Part shown: piece by piece, positions 27,325 through 28,499 of the stretch | How the letters are laid out: every line of letters begins with the position of its first letter | Position numbering within the stretch: the stretch's first letter is position 1 | Source: Rhizoctonia solani | Taxonomy: Eukaryota; Basidiomycota; Agaricomycetes; Cantharellales; Ceratobasidiaceae | Assembly: GCF_016906535.1 (NCBI RefSeq) | Contig: NC_057370.1 | Location: forward strand, 2,170,001-2,234,000 | Reading direction: 5' to 3' | Length of the DNA: 64,000 nt | Program-made: the position numbers and the translations under genes | The notes under the pieces: generated by a model | The model's database searches: none | Told to the model about the DNA's origin: nothing | The model's input: the letters and a program-made list of their open reading frames with translations, nothing else

Positions 27325-28499
27325 TCATCGACTTTCACCATTAGGCAAACGGTCCATGACCGCCCTTCCACTATCCAACCACTCCTTCTTGACCAGCTTT
27401 TCCCGCTCCTGCCACAAAATCTTATACACCATTTGATCGTGCTCTCGCTCACGCCTGCCACACTGCAAATGTCCTTTGCAGACTTGCCCTGTCCGAGCAA
27501 ATACGAGGTAAAATAGATCGCAGCTCCAGCGATTGAAATTGGTGAACGACCGTCCGCAATCCCATGGTTCCGGGCGGTAACGACGACCTCTTCGCAGGCC
27601 GTGACGACCGAGGCATGTAAATGCAACTGATTGCAGTACCGATTGAGCAAATTCTCCGCCGAAGTACCGCTCGCCGGCCCAGCACCATCCTGACCATCCG
27701 CCGGCGCCGGGCGGGACAAGTCAAACGCCTGCTCAAAGGCCTTGAAGCACTGGCCGAGCGTCTTCTTCGGCACCCTCGTCAGCTGGTGAATCTCCTTGAA
27801 CGTACGGGGCACATTCGCCTGCCTACAGGCGATCAAGATGCAGCACGCCACGACCGCATCGCGCTCTTGCCGCGCACAATCTTCTCTTCTTCCGCGCGCT
27901 TGTAGAGCTGCTTGGCCGTGTCGGATACGTTCTTAGGCAACGAAATGGACTCGCACATGGCCGAGATGTCCCGGAACGCGGTCATCATGTTGCGTTCGTT
28001 TTTGCCCACCGAGCCTCGGGCGGCTGCGCGCTGGAGCTCGCGCGCCATGCCGGATCCGCCGTCTTTGAAGCTGATGACCGTGTCGAGTTGTTCGATGCCT
28101 TCCAGAAGTGGGTTGGTGGCCGCTCCCACACGCGAGGGGTCGTCTCCTTCATCATTGGCAAACGTCTAGAGAAATAGTCATATTCTCAGTGTTTCTCCAG
28201 CCGTGGTCCTCCTTGAATTACTCACACGCCCTAACGTTCATCACAATCAGTCTCATAGCAAGAGAGAAAAAAGGGGCATGAGGGCACTCACATTCACTCC
28301 TAGTATCCACAATCCGATCACCCAATACCAACCCACAATCCCCACACACCAAATCCCCACTCCCAAACTCTTCGACAATCTTTGGGTTCATGTCTTTACA
28401 TTCGGGGCAGATCAGCCGTACAGCCAAGTCGGGTGCGTATGCTTGTTTCTGCGCCGGAGCTGCTTGTTGAGCTTGTGCTTGGAGGGGGAATGCCAACAT
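27325..28499 (-). CDS. Transcription initiation factor TFIIB (with a 5-nt micro-exon and two one-base frame breaks)
   Basis: Exon 1 (28292-28499) carries the zinc ribbon (CPECKDMN ... CGDCGLVLGDRIVDTRSE). Exon 3 (28165 onward) carries TFANDEGDDPSRVG and the two cyclin folds (FRDISAMCESISLPKNVSDT, VPRTFKEIHQLTRVPKKTLG, GRSPISIAGAAIYFTSYLLG). Exons 1 and 3 join in frame only through the 5-nt exon 28226-28230, which supplies W-R of the conserved SEWRTF. Two single-base losses break the frame: at 27861-27865 (between IVRGKS and AVVACCILIACRQ) and at 27432-27434 (between SESTIK and VYKILWQEREKLVKKEW, ending at TGA 27325). TFIIB binds TBP-DNA and positions RNA polymerase II. It is essential, so I regard the breaks as sequence error, not a dead gene. 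Confidence 0.9.
28226..28230 (-). other. 5-nt micro-exon of TFIIB
   Basis: On the minus strand the sequence reads ...gttag|GGCGT|gtgagt. Exon 1 ends GAA T (donor gtgagt, 28291) and exon 3 starts ACG TTT GCC (acceptor ctctag, 28166-28167). Joined through GGCGT the codons are GAA TGG CGT ACG TTT, giving E-W-R-T-F, the conserved TFIIB sequence SEWRTF. Without the five bases the frame is lost. Flanking introns are 61 and 60 nt, typical of this window. Confidence 0.85.

Follow-up and report, generated by a model that had tools for sequence, protein, structure and literature searches.

The five nucleotides GGCGT at positions 28226 to 28230 of the window, the 64,000-nucleotide stretch of Rhizoctonia solani DNA analyzed here, almost certainly form a genuine microexon in the one TFIIB gene found; this exon of 5 nt lies between two short canonical GT-AG introns and encodes the Trp-Arg of the SEWRTF motif at the border between ribbon and reader. 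A first-pass annotation of the window had proposed this exon, and all of the letters and coordinates that it gave around GGCGT were correct when the window sequence was read again. The gene is laid out as follows (a slash marks a junction).

28292..28499, minus strand: TFIIB (SUA7) exon 1, with the start codon at 28499; encodes the B-ribbon (Pfam PF08271) and ends GAA T, phase 1.
28231..28291, minus strand: TFIIB intron 1, 61 nt, GTGAGT...GTTAG; a CTGAT branch-like motif starts 20 nt from the 3' end.
28226..28230, minus strand: TFIIB microexon GGCGT, 5 nt; completes a Trp codon (T/GG) and supplies Arg (CGT).
28166..28225, minus strand: TFIIB intron 2, 60 nt, GTGAGT...CTCTAG; CTGAG and TGAC branch-like motifs start 24 and 15 nt from the 3' end.
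27325..28165, minus strand: TFIIB exon 3, beginning ACG TTT (TFANDEGDD... to the stop), with two frame breaks near 27861 and 27432.

Across both introns, the candidate branch-like motifs start 13 to 24 nt from the 3' ends. The spliced reading over the microexon is GDRIVDTRSEWRTFANDEGDDPSRVG. Spliced in this way, the protein aligns with yeast Sua7 without a gap up to and through SEWRTF, and the W70-R71 pair supplied by the microexon corresponds to W63-R64 of yeast Sua7 and W52-R53 of human TFIIB, as counted from the alignment. Sua7 R64 is reported to contact template DNA bases -8 and -7, and the same source still calls for dedicated tests of R64 mutants (PMC7265651).

The identity of the gene, also put forward in the first pass, was supported by Pfam. 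The first 173 residues matched PF08271 at 55.2 bits (cut-off, 29) and PF00382 at 35.3 bits (cut-off, 23.6); Zn_Ribbon_TF and the TFIIB repeat are thus both above their cut-offs, which places the protein in the TFIIB family. PF00382 was also matched on the genomic exon, and yeast Sua7 was the top solved match of the window protein. The genome searched was that of R. solani XN (AG1-IA), at 40.7 Mb (40,703,773 bases in 16 contigs), which is the total of 41,104,060 given in the assembly report less 400,287 in unplaced scaffolds (PMC7884421). A search of this genome with PF00382 returned five matches, three in the window's gene and two in one other locus on contig C9, which is probably a BRF-type paralogue. 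The window's gene was the sole TFIIB gene found.

Exon 3 carries two frame breaks on the minus strand. The first, at about 27861 (GKSA / DAVV), is covered in the XN gene model by a false 59-nt intron (27877-27819), and the second, at about 27432 near the end of TFIIB (STIK / VYKILW), is covered by a false 44-nt intron (27452-27409). The XN copy as assembled is therefore not translatable throughout. Since P0001, a 98% identical protein from R. solani AG-1 IA, reads through at both sites, the two breaks may well be indel errors of the XN assembly, as the comparison suggests. The breaks would also fit a decaying copy of TFIIB, whose exon layout would be free of selection. That explanation is very improbable, because no second TFIIB gene was found in the genome, where the other PF00382 matches lie in the one locus on C9, and because the uninterrupted frame of P0001 points to assembly errors.

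Splice readings of the 126 bases

The possible splicings between exon 1 and exon 3 were enumerated with GT-AG or GC-AG introns of at least 30 nt and with zero or one internal exon. Fifty-two readings were open, 10 with one intron and 42 with two. WRTF was present in two of them, and just one, the proposed structure, gave SEWRTF with GT-AG introns, in agreement with the earlier statement that no alternative junction keeps both the frame and the motif. The second WRTF reading inserts Cys-Glu by way of a GC donor. When exon 1 is spliced straight to exon 3, with 126 nt taken out, the frame shifts and stops follow SEYVCQ; when both introns are retained, the reading also hits a stop. The five bases are thus required both for the frame and for the conserved protein sequence, SEW[RC]TF being present in 142 of the 149 listed proteins described below. 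At 5 nt, internal, and flanked by introns of 61 and 60 nt that both run GTGAGT...AG, the exon falls within the definition of an ultra-short microexon (at most 15 nt, internal, canonical borders).

The chance of such an arrangement was estimated from shuffles of the 126 bases in which both introns had to be at least 30 nt and the exon had to follow the pattern AG, then GG with CGN or AGR, then GT. The pattern arose in 317 of 200,000 mononucleotide shuffles and in 17 of 20,000 dinucleotide shuffles. When the donor also had to be GTRAGT, the counts fell to 2 of 200,000 and 0 of 20,000, respectively. A search of the 40.7-Mb genome that tolerated two mismatches or fewer turned up no unsplit junction sequence elsewhere.

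Two other arrangements were considered and rejected. In a stwintron, an intron within an intron, the entire stretch is removed and nothing is left between the introns; here, removal of all 126 nt shifts the frame and runs into stops after SEYVCQ. A recursive-splicing exon regenerates a donor, and the exon here starts GGCGT after ...GAAT, so that no GT is regenerated at the junction. The predicted junction strings for the included microexon are GAATGGCGTACG, GAATGGCGTACGTTT, and AGTGAATGGCGTACGTTTGC, and that for the skip junction is AGTGAATACGTTTGC.

Public gene models at the microexon

The first-pass annotation had predicted that the gene would be misannotated in related genomes, and this was borne out: five of the six listed NCBI-labelled Ceratobasidiaceae models, which are cluster representatives, are wrong exactly at the microexon (two of two from R. 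solani and three of four from Ceratobasidium). The five errors take three forms, with flanks in agreement. The model of P0001 reads SECECPHTF, which is the GC-AG reading of intron 1 found in the enumeration. That of P0004 reads SEFFLQTF, in which FFLQ looks like a translation of the pyrimidine tract and CAG of intron 2. Models P0005, P0006, and P0007 read GSGDL/TF; they lack 21 ribbon and reader residues and no longer have a precomputed Pfam match to the ribbon. When 184, 59, and 44 nt are cut from the window sequence, the result is identical in every letter to P0007 ("transcription initiation factor IIB [Rhizoctonia solani]," from XN). By taking out VCGDCGLVLGDRIVDTRSEWR, the false 184-nt intron deletes WR and the rest of the zinc ribbon's second half, and the false 59- and 44-nt introns both lie over the assembly frame breaks. 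The report of the XN assembly (PMC7884421) gives PacBio and Illumina as the source of the reads and lists Augustus, GeneMark, SNAP, Exonerate, TopHat/Cufflinks, and EVM as the annotation tools. In contrast to these five, P0003 (Ceratobasidium sp. 395) reads SEWRTF and is correct at the microexon. P0002, a 93% identical sequence on a 1,301-nt contig, also reads SEWRTF; this contig may derive from RNA, though a genomic origin is also possible.

SEWRTF is carried by all 62 of the other NCBI-labelled rows among the matches listed, and the frequency of wrong models (0 of 62 versus 5 of 6 in Ceratobasidiaceae) differs with a Fisher p of 5.8e-7, a nominal value since the rows are related. One of the 62, P0131, is a TFIIB labelled Salix suchowensis (willow) that ranks among Agaricomycete proteins and has the look of a fungal contaminant in a plant assembly. 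Altogether, 149 proteins were compared (120 listed of 2,115 found and 120 listed of 232 found); 140 contain DTRSEWRTF, one contains DTRSEWCTF, and one contains DKRSEWRTF. The listed proteins without SEW[RC]TF are the five Ceratobasidiaceae models, P0127, and P0082, the last of which lacks everything upstream of exon 3. P0127 has 18 extra residues, starting VS, exactly between WR and TF, which we read as a retained 54-nt intron at R/T.

The deposited models P0001, P0004, P0005, P0006, and P0007 amount to structures without a microexon, in which a single intron is removed (for example the 184-nt intron of the XN model or the GC-AG intron that yields SECECPHTF) and TFIIB of these fungi lacks WR, and ten one-intron readings do stay open. 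Such a structure is nevertheless exceedingly unlikely. The models contradict each other at this single spot, three of them sacrifice ribbon and reader residues and the Pfam match, and the XN model requires two further false introns, whereas P0002, P0003, and the 62 other listed rows agree on SEWRTF. Because the models are wrong at the microexon, the annotated TFIIB proteins are damaged on paper only.

The split in other contigs

Relatives were compared as translated contig sequence exclusively. The query was the exon 1 translation running into intron 1, for which read-through open reading frames (ORFs) on genomic contigs are expected; 202 were found at E ≤ 1e-5, and 120 are listed. In 102 of the 120 listed ORFs, SEWR is followed by V (VS, 69; VR, 15; VG, 11; VC, 6; VK, 1), indicating that WR is unsplit and that an intron lies at R/T. 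In 17 of the 120, SE (SK in one) is followed by C, which places an intron at T/GG, the position of intron 1. The one other listed ORF has an uninterrupted SEWRTF. The residue after this C is K in 10 ORFs, E in 4, G in 2, and R in 1; K or E (14 of 17) fits T/GTAAG or T/GTGAG, and G or R (3 of 17) is a weaker fit. P0150 has a T/GTGAG site and a stop inside the intron, and its exon 1 is 90 to 96% identical to Ceratobasidiaceae proteins.

An intron at T/GG is by itself no proof of a microexon, and the translated pattern AG/GG-codon/GT was therefore sought in three frames. Among the listed ORFs, it was found in 6 of the 17 with the split; eight of these 17 have tails of at least 16 residues, and all six lie among those eight. 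The traces are RAGK in P0153, REGM in P0159 and P0243, SGRVS in P0172, QGGY in P0185, and QGV-stop in P0233. None of the 102 listed unsplit control ORFs, 85 of them with tails of at least 12 residues, contained the pattern, and 5,000 shuffles of the tails produced it in at most 2 of 17. The three frame patterns were written after the tails had been seen and so were not blind; identical patterns were applied to the control tails and to the shuffles. The six traces imply an intron 1 of 46 to 56 nt. Arg is fixed outright in P0172 only, and the other five traces allow Arg along with some other residues. Of the 11 split ORFs in which the pattern is missing, 9 break off soon after entering the intron, and the other two, P0217 and P0249, have tails of 40 and 20 residues.

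Because the pattern occurs in 6 of the 17 T/GG ORFs and in 0 of the 102 controls, the split at T/GG and R/T is, as far as these translations go, conserved beyond the R. solani XN genome. The first-pass annotation had asked for a comparison with TFIIB genes of relatives, and this comparison showed the same split in part of the translated sequences: 17 of the 120 listed ORFs share the T/GG position and 6 of these bear a trace of the microexon, but the microexon is not universal, since WR is unsplit in 102. DNA of relatives was also sought in IMG/VR, where three stretches matched a pattern but tblastn recognized no relative in any of them, and in a prokaryote genome set, where 33 stretches matched and a single short zinc-ribbon match, L007, was obtained. 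L007 (2001-2072, on a Flavobacteriales MAG contig) matches query residues 32-58 at 63% identity and may reflect contamination or chance.

A tree of the exon 1 peptides was made by a quick method from 121 rows and 69 columns; of the trait columns, just the residue before the junction was retained, and P0001 and P0004 were labelled split from their gene models, giving a split class of 19 rows. The tree was poorly resolved, with long branches and 76 of 115 inner branches open. The split class required 4 changes versus a shuffled mean of 17.9, and 0 of 500 shuffles were as low. The starred branches allow no fewer than two changes, a single split clade was not rejected (p-AU, 0.94), and a nearest-neighbour comparison pointed to several split lineages. 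In these fungi the R/T intron may have come first, to judge from the retained intron of P0127 and from the 102 ORFs with an unsplit WR. An intron at T/GG would isolate the 5 nt in part of the group.

Proposed splicing and known microexons

An exon of 5 nt would be too short to accommodate a 3' splice-site complex and a donor bound by U1 simultaneously. For this reason, on the simplest account, the two introns, which at 60 to 61 nt and with GTGAGT at both donors would be recognized by intron definition, would be taken out one after another. Removal of the first would merge the microexon into an ordinary exon for the second. Since skipping shifts the frame and brings stops within a few codons, near-complete inclusion would be needed for functional TFIIB, and the conservation of the protein suggests that inclusion is constitutive. 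A more speculative extension, to which we give little credence, is that an Agaricomycete set including Ceratobasidiaceae has long kept the 5-nt exon and that sequential splicing serves as a checkpoint on TFIIB production, a skip being a target of nonsense-mediated decay (NMD). If this were true, transcription initiation would be under feedback from how a single essential gene is spliced.

The microexon could alternatively be subject to regulated splicing, with skipping yielding either a shortened product made up of the ribbon alone or an NMD target by which the TFIIB level is tuned. The expected essential role of the TFIIB product and a length not divisible by three agree better with constitutive inclusion. 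Regulated skipping is thus unlikely, even though exon 1 could join exon 3 directly, as both donors begin GTGAGT, the shifted frame would stop a few codons on, and a microexon switch is known in the fungus Trichoderma (Xlr2; PMC11121469).

A 5-nt exon is hard for gene finders and spliced aligners, and with this one go three versions of TFIIB in public databases that contradict each other; the version shared by three models is without 21 ribbon and reader residues. R. solani is a crop-infecting soil fungus, and the affected gene encodes a basic transcription factor. Reads across the GAATGGCGTACG junction would be a simple marker for checking annotation pipelines, and the gene offers a well-defined fungal case for testing how splicing copes with an exon that is smaller than the footprint of the spliceosome.

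In the titles and abstract openings of the microexon papers listed by the searches, no TFIIB microexon or Rhizoctonia microexon was described. In the portions of a Rhizoctonia genome paper (PMC4014442) and a Cryptococcus paper (PMC3990503) that use the word, "microexon" refers to a TopHat setting. Judged from the same kind of partial text, the TFIIB exon adds a short microexon with a length that is not a multiple of three to the few described in fungi.

Plant genomes are reported to contain many conserved microexons of 1 to 15 nt that annotation has missed, such as the 1-nt exons of APC11 and VPS55 (PMC8831610). Like these, the TFIIB exon is conserved at the protein level, has two flanking introns, and belongs to a kind often missed or misannotated in reference genomes; unlike them, it has a fungal host, two introns of about 60 nt, and a core transcription factor as its gene, and it is predicted here from genomic sequence and protein conservation. 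Very short exons have also been reported in filamentous fungi: Phanerochaete chrysosporium has P450 exons, the shortest of 6 bp (PMC1184071), and Trichoderma virens has the Xlr2 microexon. The authors of the Xlr2 work state that functional microexons were previously undescribed in filamentous fungi and experimentally tested in fission yeast only (PMC11121469). The TFIIB exon differs from these in being 5 nt long, not divisible by three, and in a single gene, whereas Xlr2 is a regulated switch. The recursive-splicing microexons of Drosophila Ubx are 51 nt long and regenerate a donor at the exon 5' end (PMC8605326). Stepwise removal of the introns around a short exon, as proposed for TFIIB, would be a shared trait, whereas the T/GGCGT junction forms no GT. 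With TFIIB and Sua7 (B-ribbon, B-reader), the window's protein shares its family, zinc ribbon, SEWRTF, and TFIIB repeats, and just the gene structure is unusual. Ultra-short microexons are, in the literature as sampled, a known kind that has been little described in fungi; what is notable here is the length, the host gene, and the accompanying public errors.
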